DNA of 64,000 nt from Blastococcus sp. CT_GayMR19 (lineage in GTDB: Bacteria; Actinomycetota; Actinomycetes; Mycobacteriales; Geodermatophilaceae), in contig NZ_SPQL01000004.1 in the NCBI RefSeq assembly GCF_004570385.1, forward strand, positions 62,001 to 126,000, read 5' to 3'. The notes below the pieces were generated by a model. The model was not told the origin of the DNA. It made no database searches and saw nothing but the letters and a program-made list of their open reading frames with translations. Positions within the stretch are counted from its first letter, which is position 1; each line of letters begins with the position of its first letter. Below, piece after piece: positions 22,585-30,055 of this stretch. Position numbers and translations under genes: made by a program.

Positions 22585-22926
22585 GTGGCCCAGGACGACG
22601 CTGCCGACGTGCGGCGCGAATTCGCCCAGGCGGTCAACATGACCGCCGCGGAGCTGGAGAAGTGGCTGCAGACCGAGGAGTCGCAGGCGATGGGACAGAA
22701 GAACGGCGGGTCCGACGAGTCCACCGGCCACGAGTCGGGACGCCGCATCGTCGAGCTGCTGCGCACGAAGAAGGACGACCTCACCGACGACGACATCGCG
22801 CACATGCGCAAGGTCCACGGTTACGTGCAGCGGCACCTGGCCCAGGAGCCGGCGAAGGATGACGTCGAGACGTCGCGCTGGCGGTACTCGCTGATGAACT
22901 GGGGCCACGACCCGCTGAAGACGTAG
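22585..22926 (+). CDS. DUF3140 protein
   Basis: A 113-residue soluble, charged protein starting at GTG 22585. The pattern matches DUF3140: EFAQAVNMTAAELEKWLQTEES, SGRRIVELL, DDIAHMRKVHGYVQRHLAQEP, and the C-terminal TSRWRYSLMNWGHDP. This family is common in actinobacteria and has no assigned role. The methyltransferase gene begins 9 bp after it, so they are likely co-transcribed. Confidence 0.85.
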   Translation: MAQDDAADVRREFAQAVNMTAAELEKWLQTEESQAMGQKNGGSDESTGHESGRRIVELLRTKKDDLTDDDIAHMRKVHGYVQRHLAQEPAKDDVETSRWRYSLMNWGHDPLKT

Positions 22927-22935
22927 GTTGCGCGG

Positions 22936-23628
22936 GTGCTGCGCAACGATCCCGCCCAGTACGACGAGCTCGCCGATCAGTGGTGGGAACCCGCCGGGGA
23001 CTTCGCGATGCTCCACTGGCTCGCGGCGTCCCGGACGGAGCACATCCCGCCGGCACCGCACCCGGACGCCGTCCTGGTGGACCTGGCCTGCGGCGGGGGT
23101 CTCATGGCCCCGCACGCCGCCGCTCTCGGGTACCGCCACGTCGGCGTCGACCTGAACCTGCTCGCGGTACGGGCCGCCGCCGACCACGGCGTGCTCGCGG
23201 TCCGCGCGTCGGTCCTGGCGGTGCCGCTGGCCGACGGCTGCGCCGACGTGGTGGTCGCGGGCGAGATCCTGGAGCACGTCGAGGACGACGTCGGGGTGCT
23301 GGCCGAGTGCGCCCGGCTGCTGAAGCCGGGCGGCACGCTGGTCATCGACGCGATCGCGGCCACGCTGCTGGCCCGGCTGATCGCCGTCGAGCTCTTCGAG
23401 CGGATCCCCCACGGGGCGCCTCCCGGCATCCACGATCCCGCTCTCTTCGTCGACCGGAGGCGGTTGCTGGCCGCCGCCGACGGGCTGGGTCTGGATCTGC
23501 GGCTGGTCGGGATCCGCCCCTCGGTGCGGGACGTCGTGGCCTGGCGGCGGGGCCGTCGACCGGGCGTGCGGATGAAGCCGGTGTTCACGTCCGCGGTCCT
23601 GTTCGCCGGCTACGGGCGCAAACGCTGA
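22936..23628 (+). CDS. SAM-dependent methyltransferase (UbiG-like)
   Basis: A 230-residue class I methyltransferase. Motif I is VDLACGGGLMAPHAAALG, motif II/III are VVAGEILEHVEDD and LKPGGTLVIDAIAATLLARL. The opening YDELADQWWEPAGDFAMLHWL is like UbiG-type O-methyltransferases. GTG 22936 is the likely start. It sits 9 bp after DUF3140 and 93 bp before a type III polyketide synthase. Methyltransferase plus type III PKS is a known pairing for making methylated phenolic lipids or quinones, so the PKS product is the likely substrate. Confidence 0.85.
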   Translation: MLRNDPAQYDELADQWWEPAGDFAMLHWLAASRTEHIPPAPHPDAVLVDLACGGGLMAPHAAALGYRHVGVDLNLLAVRAAADHGVLAVRASVLAVPLADGCADVVVAGEILEHVEDDVGVLAECARLLKPGGTLVIDAIAATLLARLIAVELFERIPHGAPPGIHDPALFVDRRRLLAAADGLGLDLRLVGIRPSVRDVVAWRRGRRPGVRMKPVFTSAVLFAGYGRKR

Positions 23629-23721
23629 CGGGCCGCGCATGGGCGGGAACGGGCGGGTGGCGGAGCAGCGTCGTACCGTCGGACAGATGACGCCGAGCCC
23701 GCGCGCCCCGGAGACCCGCAG

Positions 23722-24750
23722 GTGAGTGCCGCCGTCGTGACCGGAGCCGGCTCGGCCCTCCCGGCGACGATCGAGCAGGACGCGGTCTGGGACGGCTACT
23801 TCGCCCGGCACTACGAGGGCGTGCGGGCCGCCCGCCGGATCTTCGCGGGGTCCGGCGTGCGCCGCCGGCACGCGGTGGCGAGCCCGCTCGACGAGGACCT
23901 CAGCCGGTGGAGCACGGGCGCACGCATGGAGCGCTATGTCCAGGAGGCGCTGCCGCTGGGCAAGCAGGCGGTGGCCGGGGCGCTGGACGCGGCCGGCCTG
24001 GCGCCGGGGGACGTCGGGCTGTTCGCCGTCGTCACCTGCACCGGCTACGCCACCCCCGGACTGGACATCCGGCTGGCCAGCGACCTCGGCATGCCGCCGG
24101 GACTGCAGCGACTGCTCGTCGGCCACATGGGCTGCTACGCCGCGATCCCCGGCCTCGCTGCGGTCAGTGACTTCGTCACCGCGCGGTCCCGTCCGGCGGT
24201 GATGCTCTGCTGCGAGCTCACCAGCCTGCACGTCCAGCCCGCGCAGGACGACCTCGAGCAGGTCGTCTCCCACGCGCTGTTCTCCGACGCCGCGGCCGCC
24301 GTCGTGCTCGAACCCGGGGCGTCCCGGGGGCGCCGGGTGGCCGGGATCGTGGCACGGACCGACCCGTCGACGGCCGACCACATGACCTGGGACGTCACCG
24401 ACCTCGGATTCCGCATGGGCCTCTCCGCGCGGGTGCCCGACGTCCTGGGCCGGCACGTGGGTGGTGTGGTCGACGAGCTGCTGGCGGTGGCCGGGCTGCG
24501 GATCGAGGACGTCGCCGGCTGGGCGGTGCACCCGGGGGGCCCGCGGATCCTGGACGTCGTCCGCGACCAGCTCGGTCTCGTGGAGGAGCAGCTGTCGGCG
24601 TCGCGCCGTGTGCTCGCCGAGCACGGCAACTGCTCGTCGGCGACCGTCCTGCTCGTGCTGGAGGAACTGGCCGACGTCGACGGTCCGGTGGTCGCCATGG
24701 CGTTCGGCCCGGGGCTCACTCTCTACGCGGCTCTCCTCCTCCCGACCTGA
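23722..24750 (+). CDS. Type III polyketide synthase
   Basis: A 342-residue chalcone-synthase-fold enzyme with the full catalytic triad: Cys 138 in VGHMGCYAAIPGL, His 270 in WAVHPGGPRILD, and Asn 303 in EHGNCSSATVL. These positions equal those I recall for Streptomyces RppA. It condenses malonyl-CoA units on a starter acyl-CoA. The starter pocket (ELTSLHVQ region) is not diagnostic to me, so the product could be a phenolic lipid, an alkylpyrone or a naphthol. GTG 23722 overlaps the stop of a 12-codon frame (23687-23725) that may be a leader. The methyltransferase upstream is the likely partner. Confidence 0.9.
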   Translation: MSAAVVTGAGSALPATIEQDAVWDGYFARHYEGVRAARRIFAGSGVRRRHAVASPLDEDLSRWSTGARMERYVQEALPLGKQAVAGALDAAGLAPGDVGLFAVVTCTGYATPGLDIRLASDLGMPPGLQRLLVGHMGCYAAIPGLAAVSDFVTARSRPAVMLCCELTSLHVQPAQDDLEQVVSHALFSDAAAAVVLEPGASRGRRVAGIVARTDPSTADHMTWDVTDLGFRMGLSARVPDVLGRHVGGVVDELLAVAGLRIEDVAGWAVHPGGPRILDVVRDQLGLVEEQLSASRRVLAEHGNCSSATVLLVLEELADVDGPVVAMAFGPGLTLYAALLLPT

Positions 24751-24821: not shown

Positions 24822-25475
24822 GTGGAGTCGCCGAACGCCGCGGTCCGGGTCTTCCTGGTCGACGACCACGAGGTCGTCCGTCGCGGGGTCGCCGAAGTGC
24901 TGGAGGACGACCCGGGGATCACCGTGGCCGGCGAGGCGAGCTCGATGGCCGAGGCGCTGGTCCGCGTGCCCGCCGTTCGGCCCGACCTGGTGGTGGTCGA
25001 CATGCGCCTGCCCGACGGCGACGGAGCGGAGCTCTGCCGCGGGCTGCGGGAGCGGGTCCCAGGGCTGCGCTGCCTGGTGCTGACCAGCTACTCGGAGCAG
25101 GACGCGCTCGACGCCGCGGTCCGCGCCGGTGCCTCCGGCTTCCTGCTGAAGAAGGTCCGTGGGCCGGCTCTGGTCTCCGCGGTGCGCACCGTGGCGACCG
25201 GGGGGACGTTCTTCGACGACGTCGGGCCGGGCGGGCGCCGCCGCCGGCCCGGCGCGACGGGCGGTGACCGGCTGGCGCTGCTCACCGATCAGGAGCGCAC
25301 CGTCCTGCTCCTGATCGGGCAGGGCCTCACCAACCGGCAGATCGGTGAGCGGATGGGCCTGGCGGAGAAGACCGTGAAGAACTACACCAGCCACCTGCTG
25401 GCCAAGCTGGGGCTGGAGCGGCGCACCCAGGCGGCGATCCTCGCGACGGAGCTGCGGGACCACCCGGACGGCTGA
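24822..25475 (+). CDS. DosR/DevR-like response regulator
   Basis: A 217-residue NarL/LuxR-type regulator. The receiver has Asp 14, Asp 15, phospho-acceptor Asp 60 (VVVDMRLPDGDG) and Lys 110. The DNA-binding end reads LTDQERTVLLLIGQGLTNRQ then AEKTVKNYTSHLLAKLG. This is very close to M. tuberculosis DosR, including the DNA-contacting Lys, Lys and Asn (here 183, 186 and 187), which predicts a GGGAC-type target. The cognate kinase gene is tail-to-tail with it (5-bp gap), not in an operon. GTG 24822 is preceded by GGAAGGGG. Confidence 0.9.
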   Translation: MESPNAAVRVFLVDDHEVVRRGVAEVLEDDPGITVAGEASSMAEALVRVPAVRPDLVVVDMRLPDGDGAELCRGLRERVPGLRCLVLTSYSEQDALDAAVRAGASGFLLKKVRGPALVSAVRTVATGGTFFDDVGPGGRRRRPGATGGDRLALLTDQERTVLLLIGQGLTNRQIGERMGLAEKTVKNYTSHLLAKLGLERRTQAAILATELRDHPDG

Positions 25476-25480
25476 CCCGC

Positions 25481-27163
25481 TCAGCCTGCGGGGGCCGGCA
25501 CGGCCCAGCAGACCTGCGTCCCGGCCGGGCCTGCGAACGTGGTGAGCGCGCCGCCGCGCCGTTCGGCGCGGTCCGCCAGGTTGGCGAGCCCGCTGCGCGC
25601 GGTGACCTCCGGCAGCCCGGTCCCGTCGTCGGCCACCGCCACCGTCACCTGGTCCCCGACGGCGACCGTGACGGTCACCCGGGACGCGGCCGCATGCCGC
25701 ACGACGTTGGTCACGAGCTCGCGCACGACCGCGACGAGATCCGGCACGAGCGCCCGGGGGAGGTCGTCGACCGAGCCCCGGAACCGGACGTCGCGCTGGA
25801 GGTCGTGGCCCTCGGTGACCTGGCGGACCACGTCGGCGAGCTGGCTGCGCACGGTCGCGGGCTCGGGCCCCTCGCCCTGGTGCAGCTCGAAGATCGCCGC
25901 CCGGATCTCGGCCATCGTCCCGTCGAGCTCGTCGACGCTGCGGGACAGCCGCTCGGCCGCCTCCGGGTGGTCCGGCTGCAGAGCGCGGCTCAGGCGGTCG
26001 AGGGACAGCGCCGTGGCGAAGATCCGCTGGACGACGTGGTCGTGCAGGTCCCGGGCGATGCGGTCGCGGTCGGCCTGCACCTGGAGCCGGCGCTCGCGCT
26101 GCTGCGTGCGGGCCAGCTCCAGGACGATCGAGGCCCGGGCAGCGAACGTGGCGAGCAGGTCCAGGTCGTCGGAGGAGAACGGCTCGCGGCCCGAGGACCG
26201 CAACACCGCGAGGAAACCCCGGTCGGGGCCGCTGCCCAGCGGCGCGATCATCCCCGGGCCGAAGGTGGCGGTCAGCTCCACGACTGCCGCTGCGCGCCGG
26301 CCGATCACGGGCATGGTGCTGATGTCCTGCATGACCCGCGGTAGGCCGCTCTCGTAGAGGGCGCCGAGGTAGGTCCCGTCCAAGGGCAACCGGACGCCCT
26401 CGTAGTCGTCGGCCAGGGCGCCCACCGCGGACACGATCGTCAGCGACTTGTCGCCGTCGACACTGGGCAACAGCACGCCGGCCATGTCGGCGGTGGTGAG
26501 CGCCGAGACCTGGGAGGTGACCGCCCGGAGCACGTCGTCGGGATCGGCGCCGGACAGCAACGCGGTGGCCATCTCCGTCCCGGCCTGGCCCCAGCGGTGG
26601 CGGGTCTCGGAGCGCTCGGCCAGCCGCGCATTCGTGATGGCCAGGCCGGCCACGGCGGCCAGGGCCCGCGCCACCTCGGTGTCCGCCTCGGTGAACGGGC
26701 CGCCGCCCCGTTTCTCGGTCAGGTAGAGGTTGCCGAACACCGTCGCTCCGACACGGATCGGGACGCCGAGGAAGGACCGCATCGGCGGGTGTCCCGGCGG
26801 GAAACCGGTGGCGGCGGGGTGCTGCCCCAGGTCGTCGAGGCGGAGCGGGGTCGGGTCGTCGACCAGCAGACCCAGGATGCCCTGGCCGGTCGGCAGCCGG
26901 CCGATGCGCTCGGCATCCGCGTCGTCCATGCCCACGACGATGAACCGGTCCAGCTTGCTGCCGTCCGGGGTGAGCACGCCGAGTGCGCCGTAGGTGGCAT
27001 CGACGTGCCGGACCGCGGCGCGCGCGATGTCGTGCAGCGTCGCCTCGCCGTGCCCGACCGAGGCCACGGCGACGACGGCCGCGGCCAGCACGGGCAGGTC
27101 GCCGGGCATCCCCTCCGCGGGACGGCCGGCTACCTCAGCGGCGGGGCCGTCGGGCGGGGTCAC
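25481..27163 (-). CDS. DosS-like GAF-GAF heme sensor histidine kinase
   Basis: A 560-residue kinase with two GAF domains (about 42-185 and 205-350), a HisKA_3 dimerisation domain and a HATPase domain. GAF-A carries QHPAATGFPPGHPPMRSFLG: His 125 aligns with the heme-ligating His 149 of M. tuberculosis DosS as I recall it, and Tyr 147 in FGNLYLTEK aligns with the distal Tyr 171. The phospho-acceptor is His 374 (RIARDLHDHVVQR). The ATP-binding region has NVVRHAAAS and DDGTGLP. It probably senses O2, NO or CO through heme and phosphorylates the convergent DosR-like regulator. GTG 27163 starts it. Confidence 0.88.
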   Translation of the reverse strand: MTPPDGPAAEVAGRPAEGMPGDLPVLAAAVVAVASVGHGEATLHDIARAAVRHVDATYGALGVLTPDGSKLDRFIVVGMDDADAERIGRLPTGQGILGLLVDDPTPLRLDDLGQHPAATGFPPGHPPMRSFLGVPIRVGATVFGNLYLTEKRGGGPFTEADTEVARALAAVAGLAITNARLAERSETRHRWGQAGTEMATALLSGADPDDVLRAVTSQVSALTTADMAGVLLPSVDGDKSLTIVSAVGALADDYEGVRLPLDGTYLGALYESGLPRVMQDISTMPVIGRRAAAVVELTATFGPGMIAPLGSGPDRGFLAVLRSSGREPFSSDDLDLLATFAARASIVLELARTQQRERRLQVQADRDRIARDLHDHVVQRIFATALSLDRLSRALQPDHPEAAERLSRSVDELDGTMAEIRAAIFELHQGEGPEPATVRSQLADVVRQVTEGHDLQRDVRFRGSVDDLPRALVPDLVAVVRELVTNVVRHAAASRVTVTVAVGDQVTVAVADDGTGLPEVTARSGLANLADRAERRGGALTTFAGPAGTQVCWAVPAPAG

Positions 27164-27258
27164 GGCCCGACGGTAGGAGTCCCGGCCAGGAGAGGGAAGC
27201 GGTCCCGGCGTGTGCCCGCTGGTCGAGGACGGAGGGAGCGACGACGGTGGCGGGCCGG

Positions 27259-27792
27259 TCAGGCGCCGTGCGCCAGCCGTCGGGCGGGCGGCCGAGGTAC
27301 GGCCTGACGCAGGAGGCTCTTTCCCTGGCGCCCGACCACGACGAGGTCCGCGCCGCGGGTCGCGGCGGTGAGGGCCTCGTACACCGGCCGGTCCAGCACG
27401 GCCGTCCGGGTGCGGCCGTGGACGCCGGTCTCGGCGATCGCCCGCAGGACCTGCGCCTCCAGGCGGTCGTGCGCGGCGAGCTGGGCCCGGATCAGGACCC
27501 GGGTGGAGCCCTCGAGCGGGTCGCCCGCGGGGGCGTCGAGAACCGTCACGGCGACGACGGTCGCCTCACGACGAGCCGCCTCCCGGAGGGCCCAGACGAG
27601 GCCCTGGTGCGCGCCCGGCGAGCCGTCCACCTCGACGATCAGCCAGGGGCTCTGCCGGCGGGGGAGCAGGGGCGGAAGACGGAGCGGCGCGGGGGCGCCG
27701 GACTCCCGTGGAGCGGGCATGGGCGGGACGACCGGGCGGGGCTCCGTCTCCGGTGACGGCTCGGGCTCCCTGGACGCCCGGATGTCGCTCAT
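27259..27792 (-). CDS. Universal stress protein family, divergent
   Basis: A 177-residue protein with a Pro-rich N-terminus of about 55 residues and one Usp domain (LIVEVDGSPGAHQGLVWALREAA, RGADLVVVGRQGKSLL). The usual ATP-binding tail G-2X-G-9X-G(S/T) is incomplete: after GRQGKS the chain runs into a Pro/Arg-rich end, RPPARRLAHGA, so ATP binding is doubtful. ATG 27792 lies 35 bp from a DosR-like box, and the DosS-like kinase lies directly downstream on the same strand. Usp genes are classic members of the mycobacterial DosR regulon. Confidence 0.8.
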   Translation of the reverse strand: MSDIRASREPEPSPETEPRPVVPPMPAPRESGAPAPLRLPPLLPRRQSPWLIVEVDGSPGAHQGLVWALREAARREATVVAVTVLDAPAGDPLEGSTRVLIRAQLAAHDRLEAQVLRAIAETGVHGRTRTAVLDRPVYEALTAATRGADLVVVGRQGKSLLRQAVPRPPARRLAHGA

Positions 27793-27827
27793 GACTCGAT
27801 CGTCGCGGGCTCGGTGGAGCAACTACA

Positions 27828-27841
27828 GGGACCAAAGACCC
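27828..27841. promoter_or_regulatory. DosR-like box upstream of the Usp gene
   Basis: GGGACCAAAGACCC matches the core of the mycobacterial DosR box, GGGACTAAAGTCCC, at 12 of 14 positions and keeps its inverted-repeat form. It lies 36-49 bp upstream of the Usp start. The neighbouring DosR-like regulator keeps the residues that contact this motif. Confidence 0.65.
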
Positions 27842-28006
27842 GGCCACCGAACCAGTCGGCCGATTTCGGTCCGTATACAGGGCAGGACCGGCATCGCGCA
27901 CACCGAAGGTCATCGGGCGTCACAGTCCGTCACCCCGTCTCGCTGAGTGAGGCGCGTCGAGTCTCGCCCGACTCAAGATGGACGATTTCGTTCCGATGGT
28001 GGAACC

Positions 28007-30055
28007 GTGAGGCTTCTCCGCCGGCTGCGCAGCACCAGCCTGCTGACGCGCTTCGCGACGCTCAGCCTGCTGCTGACCGTCGCGGTCGGGGTCGTCCTCT
28101 CCTCCGTGCTCACCACCGTCATCGAGGACCGGGCCCGTCAGCAGGCGGAGGACGCCGCGCTGATGGCGGTGCGCCTCGGCCTCCAGCCGCAGTTCACGCG
28201 GACCGATCTCACCCGCGGCTTCGACGTCGAGCGCCTCGCGGGAGTGGAGAAGGCCGTCGACGACGCCTCCGACCAGTTCGGGACGGAGGGCACGCCGCTG
28301 GCCGCGTTCGATCCGATCGAGCTGAAGGTCTTCGGCGCCGACCGGACGATCCTCTACCACTCCGAGCACCCCGAACTGGTCGGCGAGACCTCGCAGTCGG
28401 GGGAGTTGGGCGCCGCCCTCGACGGCTACGTGGTCTCCGGTTTCGCGCACTCCGCCGACGACGGCGCCGGCAGCGAGGACGGGGCGCACCAGTTGCTCGA
28501 GGTCTACGTCCCGCTGCAGTTCGACGGGGCCGCCCGTCCCGGCGGCGCCATCGAGCTCTACCTCCCGTACGCCCCCGTGGCGGCCGCCGTGCGCGACGAC
28601 GTCCGCACCATGACCGTCGCCCTGGGGATCAGTCTCGCCGTCTTCTGCCTCGTCGTCCTCCGGGTGATCGCGTCGGCCTCCCGGCGGATGCGCCGGCAGA
28701 GCGAGGCGTTGCAGGCCTCCGCCGACCGCGACCGCCACCAGTCCACCCACGACGCGCTGACCGGCCTGCCGAACTGGGTCCTGGTCCGTGACCGCCTCGA
28801 CCAGGGGCTCGCCGCCGCCGGCCGGTCCGACGCGGAGGTCGCCCTCCTGCTCATCGACCTGGACCGCTTCAAGGAGATCAACGACAGCCTCGGGCACTCC
28901 TACGGGGACAAGCTCCTCTGCCAGGTGGGTCCGCGGCTCCGGTCCGCCCTGCGGGACGCGGACACCGTCGGTCGCCTGGGCGGCGACGAGTTCGCCGTCC
29001 TGCTGCCGTCGGTGGACGGCGTCGGCGAGGCGGAGGCGGTGGCGGAGCGGCTCCGCCAGGCCCTGCACCAGCCGTTCGACGTCGACGGCGTGATCCTCGA
29101 CGTGGAGGCGAGCATCGGCATCGTCCTGTCGCCGTGGCACGGCACCGACAGCGAGGAACTGCGCCGCAACGCCGACATCGCGATGTATGCGGCGAAGGAG
29201 CTGAAGGGCGGCGCGGTCGTGTTCCAGCCCGAGGCGCACGCCACCACCCCGGTCCGGCTCTCGGTCCTCGGCGACCTCCGTCGCGCGCTCGACGGCGCGG
29301 ACGAGCTGTTCCTCAACTACCAGCCCAAGATCACCCTGGACGGCGGGCGGATCGAGGGGCTGGAGGCGCTGCTGCGCTGGCAGCACCCGACCCAGGGGCT
29401 CATCCCGCCGGGCGAGTTCATCCCGGTCGCCGAGGGCACCGGCATCATCCTGCGGCTCACGGAGCGGGTGCTGAACCTGGCGCTCGCCCAGCAGCGGTGC
29501 TGGCTGGAGGCGGGGCTCGCCGTCCCGGTGGCGGTCAACCTGTCCACCCGATGCCTGCTCGACGCCGACCTGCCCGAGCTCGTCGAGCGGCTGCTCACCG
29601 AGCACCGGGTGCCCGCGGCCCTGCTGCGGCTCGAGGTCACCGAGAGCGCCGTCATGGGTGACGCGGCCCGGTGCATGGACGTGCTCCAGCGGCTGCGCGA
29701 CCTCGGCGTCCACCTCTCGATCGACGACTTCGGCACGGGGTACAGCTCCATGGCCTACCTCCGGCGGCTGCCGGTGGACGAGCTGAAGATCGACCGTTCC
29801 TTCGTCCTGGGCATGACCACCACGGCACAGGACCTCGTGCTGGTGCGGACGGCCATCGACCTGGGCCACAACCTGGGCCTCACGGTCGTCGCGGAGGGCG
29901 TCGAGCTCGCCGAGCAGGTCGACGCGCTCCGCGAGCTCGGCTGCGACATCGCCCAGGGCTACCACTACGCCCGCCCGATGGCGGCCGAGTCGATGACCGT
30001 GCTGCTGGCCCGGGTGGGCACGATGCACGACGAGCGGCTGCGCGCCGGCTCCTGA
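28007..30055 (+). CDS. Membrane GGDEF-EAL protein (c-di-GMP turnover)
   Basis: A 682-residue protein. Membrane helix 1 (LLTRFATLSLLLTVAVGVVL) is followed by an extracytoplasmic sensor region (about 45-190) and helix 2 (TVALGISLAVFCLVVLRV). The GGDEF domain is intact (GRLGGDEFAVL) with an RDAD inhibition site before it. The EAL domain is intact too: LEALLRWQHP, VTESAVMGD, DDFGTGYSSMAYLRRLP and KIDRSFV. It may therefore both make and degrade c-di-GMP. GTG 28007 was chosen as the conserved start, and the frame is open to 27947. A shared terminator follows. Confidence 0.92.
   Translation: MRLLRRLRSTSLLTRFATLSLLLTVAVGVVLSSVLTTVIEDRARQQAEDAALMAVRLGLQPQFTRTDLTRGFDVERLAGVEKAVDDASDQFGTEGTPLAAFDPIELKVFGADRTILYHSEHPELVGETSQSGELGAALDGYVVSGFAHSADDGAGSEDGAHQLLEVYVPLQFDGAARPGGAIELYLPYAPVAAAVRDDVRTMTVALGISLAVFCLVVLRVIASASRRMRRQSEALQASADRDRHQSTHDALTGLPNWVLVRDRLDQGLAAAGRSDAEVALLLIDLDRFKEINDSLGHSYGDKLLCQVGPRLRSALRDADTVGRLGGDEFAVLLPSVDGVGEAEAVAERLRQALHQPFDVDGVILDVEASIGIVLSPWHGTDSEELRRNADIAMYAAKELKGGAVVFQPEAHATTPVRLSVLGDLRRALDGADELFLNYQPKITLDGGRIEGLEALLRWQHPTQGLIPPGEFIPVAEGTGIILRLTERVLNLALAQQRCWLEAGLAVPVAVNLSTRCLLDADLPELVERLLTEHRVPAALLRLEVTESAVMGDAARCMDVLQRLRDLGVHLSIDDFGTGYSSMAYLRRLPVDELKIDRSFVLGMTTTAQDLVLVRTAIDLGHNLGLTVVAEGVELAEQVDALRELGCDIAQGYHYARPMAAESMTVLLARVGTMHDERLRAGS

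Follow-up and report, generated by a model that had tools for sequence, protein, structure and literature searches.

The described systems closest to the locus reported here are DosS/DosT-DosR (DevS-DevR) of Mycobacterium tuberculosis, OsdK-OsdR of Streptomyces coelicolor and PolS-PolR of Microlunatus phosphovorus. In DosS, His149 is the proximal and Tyr171 the distal residue of the heme site (PMC4082495), and a role in DNA contact is assigned to Lys182 of DosR (PMC5999986). An overlap of the proximal DevR box with the -35 element is described for the mycobacterial promoters analysed (PMC3029386), and in M. smegmatis -10 elements of the form ANNNT and leaderless transcripts are common (PMC6448022). 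OsdR sites were predicted upstream of genes for universal stress proteins (USP), among others, e.g. AGGGACCTTCGGCCCC, and several were bound in vitro (PMC5069765). For PolR, the reported targets are direct repeats GTTCACnnnnnGTTCaC, located at phosphate and polyphosphate genes (PMC6754071). We describe a DosS/DosR-like pair, a USP gene and a putative operator in a 64-kb window (the whole stretch of DNA that was analysed) on contig C34 of the genome of Blastococcus sp. CT_GayMR19 (4.57 Mb, 42 contigs), a member of the Geodermatophilaceae.

A prediction made earlier from the sequence, here called the original prediction, had taken these genes for what seemed a small, self-contained circuit of the hypoxia/NO type. 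Judged by sequence, we propose with a probability of roughly 0.7 that the locus represents a Geodermatophilaceae branch of the DosS/DosT-DosR family that would sense by heme and in which the operator would drive a USP-kinase transcript, with feedback on the sensor.

The predicted operator and its promoter

The genes are arranged in the order type III polyketide synthase (PKS; plus strand), regulator (plus), kinase (minus), USP (minus), box and GGDEF-EAL protein (plus). The non-canonical USP (27259-27792, minus strand; 177 aa from the ATG at 27792; Usp domain 46 bits) is preceded by the predicted DosR-type operator, GGGTCTTTGGTCCC on the coding strand (27828-27841, minus), just as the original prediction had it. 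The end of the box is 35 nt upstream of the ATG, and GGGACCAAAGACCC at this position is the single exact copy in the genome. Read on the coding strand, GGGTCTTTGGTCCCT has one mismatch to the strong mycobacterial DosR consensus as quoted in PMC6448022 and, by our own reading, none to the weak one. Downstream of the box, at a distance of exactly 24 nt, is a predicted -10 element, ACGAT (ANNNT; 27799-27803, minus), which would put the transcription start at the ATG of the USP gene.

What makes the site credible is its conservation, not its abundance. The pair of the window belongs to a group, type A, of 68 loci (31 + 37 retrieved), all from Geodermatophilaceae and with kinases 50-71% identical to that of the window. 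Upstream of the type-A kinase, the best site had no mismatch to the 12 key positions of GGGNCYWWRGNCCC in 59 loci, one in 7 and two in 2; this count is not blind, since the choice of site favoured matches with a downstream -10 element, and the 68 loci are mutually related. Columns 2, 3, 5, 7, 12, 13 and 14 of the box are invariant in all of them, and in 67 of the 68 loci an ANNNT element follows the box at a distance of exactly 24 nt. Where a USP gene is present (53 loci), its ATG or GTG follows the ANNNT element by 6 nt (35 loci), 7 nt (17) or 8 nt (1). With this spacing, transcription would begin at or beside the start codon, and the box would be centred at -42.5.

The USP gene is absent from the other 15 loci, in which the box precedes the kinase gene. 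That the box is retained there suggests that the kinase gene is a main target, and most likely the box drives a leaderless USP-kinase operon rather than the USP gene alone. The link of box and USP gene that had been predicted is thus correct as to position, and the target is probably wider than assumed.

The USP itself has a Pro-rich N terminus and a C-terminal tail that ends in RRLAHGA; its start position and the [RHS]GA end are conserved in the 53 loci that carry it. USP proteins have a canonical C-terminal motif that is apparently absent here: of the usual ATP motif the first glycines are present, and the reading frame then closes early with a short tail (27259-27320). None of the 13 other Usp matches in the genome has the composite of box and ANNNT element; lone strict sites are found in the flanks of two of them (L061:1977 and L071:33).

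The sensor kinase

The type-A kinase of the window (25481-27163, minus; 560 aa) is a DosS/DosT-like sensor histidine kinase with GAF-A of the heme type, GAF-B, HisKA_3 with the phosphorylatable His374, and HATPase_c, all of them present. GAF-A is complete, and its sequence and predicted fold match solved heme domains. His125 and Tyr147 align with His149 and Tyr171 of DosS, as had been predicted; by this alignment His125 is the predicted proximal heme ligand, and the codons of His125-Pro126 are at 26786-26791 (minus; coordinates derived from the reading frame). The description of the kinase as DosS-like needs one amendment. At the position of DosS Glu87 it carries Gly62, which differs from DosS and agrees with Gly85 of DosT, so that at this position the sensor is DosT-like; glycine is found here in 59 of the 68 type-A kinases. 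The weight of this residue for function is a matter of dispute (PMC4082495). Among the 11 NCBIfam families listed for the kinase none reached its cut-off; the best was MadS.

The segment around the proximal His, together with the His, is kept in 58 of the 68 type-A kinases (in L144 with a gap of 6 residues), and 51 of these 58 also have the Tyr; one further kinase (L089) could not be assessed. The remaining nine have a shortened GAF-A. In eight (L127-L134), 26-43 of the 50 positions preceding the His are gone, the His is absent in seven and the Tyr in all eight; in L128 a His does occupy the proximal column. In the ninth (L163), GAF-A is shortened by 26 positions and Ser and His replace His and Tyr. 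The kinases of L127-L134 appear to fall into two groups of the tree with intact kinases between them. As a separate observation, the distal Tyr is replaced by Phe, with the His retained, in the type-A kinases of L108, L148, L151, L152 and L155; for DosS, the Y171F exchange is reported to abolish discrimination among O2, CO and NO (PMC4082495).

The response regulator

The regulator (24822-25475, plus; 217 aa, GTG start) is a DosR-like protein of the NarL/LuxR type with Response_reg and GerE domains. Its best match in the PDB is DevR (3c3w, 234.6 bits), followed by VraR with 116.1 bits; none of the best 25 of 78 NCBIfam families reached its cut-off, the best being MadR. Asp60 and Lys110 align with D54 and K104 of DosR, in a NarL-type receiver that is joined to a GerE helix-turn-helix. 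Regulators of the DosR/DevR type act by binding boxes of the form GGGNC-N4-GNCCC, from which they activate. Besides Lys182, Lys179 and Asn183 of DosR are DNA-contact residues. The three correspond to Lys183 (K179), Lys186 (K182) and Asn187 (N183) in the window, in agreement with the original prediction, and are kept in all 68 type-A orthologs.

In the window no strict DosR-type site lies within 300 nt upstream of the regulator gene. Across type A, such a site was found within this distance in 2 of the 68 loci (one regulator, L104, is cut by a contig end) versus about 3.6 expected from the shuffle rate, which is not above chance.

The promoters of the type-A regulators carry a CRP-like palindrome, GTGA-N6-TCAC, exactly in 33 of 67 loci and with one mismatch in 14 more (null rates 0.05% and 3%, respectively); examples are L085, L087 and L081. 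None was seen on reading the promoter of the window's own regulator.

A second putative operator

Tight patterns of the box matched 47 places in 16 genomes of the genus, and the USP-kinase promoter was among them in each genome. When the other 29 places outside the window's genome were retrieved, one that recurred pointed to a putative operator in front of a gene for a 69-aa protein with a three-helix bundle dimerization domain (NCBIfam NF046112, E 2.3e-6). The site there reads GGGACCTTGGTCCCTGG, or differs slightly from it; its position is C26:121854-121867 in the genome of the window (L048, L313). The three-helix gene was found in 80 of 108 genomes of the family. At most one mismatch was seen in 30 of 30 plus 43 of 50 loci (73/80) and at most two in 78 of the 80, while among resampled 500-nt upstream regions about 2.5% reach one mismatch or fewer. 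An ANNNT element lies exactly 24 nt past the second operator in 61 of the 80 loci. In the window's genome the next gene encodes an ABC-F ATPase (NCBIfam ribosomal-protection-like ABC-F, 273 bits, below the cut-off of 380 bits), and similar ABC-F-like frames are present downstream of the three-helix gene in most other loci read.

This conserved operator leads us to reject a strictly local, single-target regulon. The apparent self-containment of the original prediction does not hold fully, the more so as a second DosR/DosS-like pair is encoded on contig C14; what stands of the small hypoxia/NO-type circuit is a pair of the DosS/DosT-DosR type with a DosR-type box in front of a USP gene, and its reach is not local only.

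Two further sites of the genome were read. The other site of the tight pattern, C3:9574-9587, is flanked by an ABC-ATPase-like gene on one side and an rRNA-methyltransferase-like gene on the other (named by reading the translations only); on neither strand is there an ANNNT element at exactly 24 nt, and one is found at 26 nt on the ATPase side. At C33:36904-36917 (L052), GGGACCGAAGACCC is followed by TAGCAT and, 7 nt on, by an ATG, an arrangement that resembles a similar promoter; no frame of at least 70 aa begins at this ATG.

Type A and type B in the family

Many genomes of the family have a second kind of kinase, type B, with 43-47% identity to the kinase of the window. In a tree, type A forms a single clade (67/67, support 0.907) and type B another. 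Outside the family, the best-scoring match to the window's kinase had 404 bits and 45% identity, and identities among the matches listed went up to 47% (class sample of 394 genomes, three candidates scored per genome). Type-B regulators are on average 64.5% identical to mycobacterial DosR (20 loci) versus 59.4% for type A (68 loci), so that the regulator of the window belongs to the type farther from M. tuberculosis DosR.

The type-B regulator of the window's genome is at C14:526696-527325; its identity to DosR is 61%, and the AEKTVKNY stretch is the same. Its kinase (C14:524934-526199, L023) lacks the GAF-A segment that bears the proximal His and nests within the clade of intact type-B kinases (support 1.0). 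The regulator was searched for in 24 genomes of the family, nine of which had no DosR-like regulator at E <= 1e-50. The 24 genomes gave 19 regulator loci; in seven of these, mostly of type B, the 350 nt preceding the regulator gene contain a strict site (L356, L358-L360 and L363-L365), and the upstream regions of L349 and L353 carry GGGACCTTGGTCCT.

Neighbouring genes

The PKS gene (23722-24750, plus) is directly upstream of the regulator gene, with a gap of 71 nt. It has the same position and strand in 67 of the 68 orthologous loci, with a median gap of 70 nt, and 29 other type-A loci gave a match to its product, at 84-92% identity. Together with a DUF3140 gene and a methyltransferase gene it forms the group at 22585-24750 (plus) that immediately precedes the regulator. 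On the far side of the box is the divergent gene of a GGDEF-EAL protein (27947-30055, plus; start uncertain, possibly 28007), whose adjacency to the box varies among relatives.

Regulator and kinase genes are indeed tail-to-tail. This order had been thought unusual, an idea that had to be given up: outside the Geodermatophilaceae, the flank encodes a DosR-like regulator in 45 named loci and lacks one in 32 more; in 17 of the 45 the order is convergent, with a distance of up to 600 nt in 14 and a larger one in three. Convergent pairs are ordinary outside mycobacteria.

Discussion

By its sequence and predicted fold the circuit is of the DosS/DosT-DosR kind; the place of the box, the gene order and the predicted targets differ. 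With M. tuberculosis it shares the domain order GAF-A/GAF-B/HisKA_3/HATPase, the equivalents of His149 and Tyr171, the DosR contacts and the type of operator. Unlike there, the genes are convergent, a type III PKS gene lies upstream of the regulator gene, and the box precedes the USP-kinase operon and not (beyond chance) the regulator gene, as it does for devR; this placement is a variable trait. The comparison with the mycobacterial DosR regulon (hspX, tgs1, nitroreductases and others) covered the Usp genes. OsdK-OsdR is likewise a relative of DosRS outside mycobacteria, with sites of a similar kind, and the site of the window resembles the predicted OsdR sites. In S. coelicolor, however, osdR and osdK form one operon with the site before osdR, and the centre of the OsdR consensus is GATC, whereas it is CTTG here. 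PolS-PolR is a further DevS/DevR-like pair outside mycobacteria (PMC6754071).

We infer the following course of events. GAF-A of the kinase would bind heme via His125, and O2 bound to the heme and hydrogen-bonded by Tyr147 would keep the kinase inactive. The kinase would become active once O2 is lost or NO or CO binds, and phosphate would move from His374 to the regulator's Asp60. In its phosphorylated form, the regulator would then bind the 14-bp operator at -42.5, which overlaps the -35 region, and activate the leaderless USP-kinase transcript; elsewhere in the genome, the same type of operator would activate the three-helix-bundle gene, behind which the ABC-F gene lies. Since the kinase gene is downstream of the USP gene in what is probably one transcript, feedback apparently acts on the sensor rather than on the regulator.

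Several findings weigh against this proposal. The genome-wide enrichment that could have been expected is neutral or negative in raw counts: the degenerate pattern of the box gave 35 rows versus 20 control rows, tight patterns were rarer than their reversed controls in the genome (17 versus 55 rows), and in the 16 genus genomes the 47 places compare with 135 for the reversed control. The box counts upstream of the type-A kinases share the bias in the choice of sites and the relatedness of the loci mentioned above. PolR, reported as 76% identical to DevR, was found to bind a different motif (PMC6754071). The regulator encoded on C14 could be the binder of the box. The nine type-A kinases with a shortened GAF-A have no usable heme site, yet regulator and box are present in their loci, and heme sensing is therefore dispensable for the circuit. 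Finally, the second operator is retained in two genomes in which no DosR-like regulator was detected at E <= 1e-50, G022 (L334, no mismatch) and G043 (L376, one mismatch); the loss may be recent, a different protein may read the box, or the assembly may be incomplete (370 contigs in G043). G066, which also has no regulator at E <= 1e-50, has a weak match to the three-helix gene and no site (three mismatches, L416).

A doubtful, though possible, alternative is that the operator is real but read mainly by the type-B regulator of C14, or by both regulators, so that the type-A regulator may have other targets. The AEKTVKNY stretch of the C14 protein would allow this, and in G085, G089, G091 and G100-G103 a regulator of 65-68% identity and a three-helix operator with at most one mismatch occur without a listed type-A kinase. 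On the other hand, the box is found at the type-A kinase operon in every one of the 68 type-A loci, whether or not a USP gene is present, and the type-A regulator retains identical contact residues. It is improbable that heme is no longer the main input of the kinase, with GAF-B or another signal in control and His125 and Tyr147 as remnants: the nine shortened orthologs, which keep regulator and box, and the genome's own C14 kinase, which likewise has no His segment, would fit, but most orthologs retain segment and His, most of these also the Tyr, and GAF-A of the window is complete and matches solved heme domains. Quite improbable is a box of an unrelated transcription factor, found near a DosR-like pair by coincidence of a shared promoter class. 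G022 and G043, which keep the three-helix operator with no DosR-like regulator detected, speak for it; its agreement with the mycobacterial and OsdR consensus sequences, its placement at -42.5 and its position at the kinase's own operon speak against it. That the arrangement of box, USP and kinase is a chance motif of a high-GC genome can be dismissed, since all 68 orthologous loci have the box and 67 of them an ANNNT element at exactly 24 nt from it on the downstream side, although in the window alone the degenerate palindrome GGGNCNNNNGNCCC is not above chance (6 observed, 11.2 expected).

Beyond the branch of the DosS/DosT-DosR family proposed above, one may tentatively think of a DosR circuit rewired throughout the family, although we would sooner doubt this than accept it. 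In it, the operator would, by way of a USP-kinase operon, amplify the sensor instead of the regulator, and the heme module would have been cut repeatedly in type A and, as a separate event, in the window genome's type-B kinase, with the regulator, and in type A also the operator, being kept. If this is true, the output of an oxygen switch would have been kept and its gas sensor exchanged for another input.

In the papers drawn on here, DosR circuits come mostly from mycobacteria, with few cases elsewhere (Streptomyces, Microlunatus). Among the matches listed, no publication paired DosR or DevS with names of Geodermatophilaceae; such work may nonetheless have been published. The Geodermatophilaceae add a family in which sequence analysis reveals operator, spacing and two predicted targets. 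The operator of the three-helix and ABC-F genes is a possible link of the oxygen state to translation. Natural variants in which the USP, the heme segment or the regulator is lost show which features the circuit requires and which changes it can tolerate, and they make the location of feedback in a DosRS switch and the need for heme testable.

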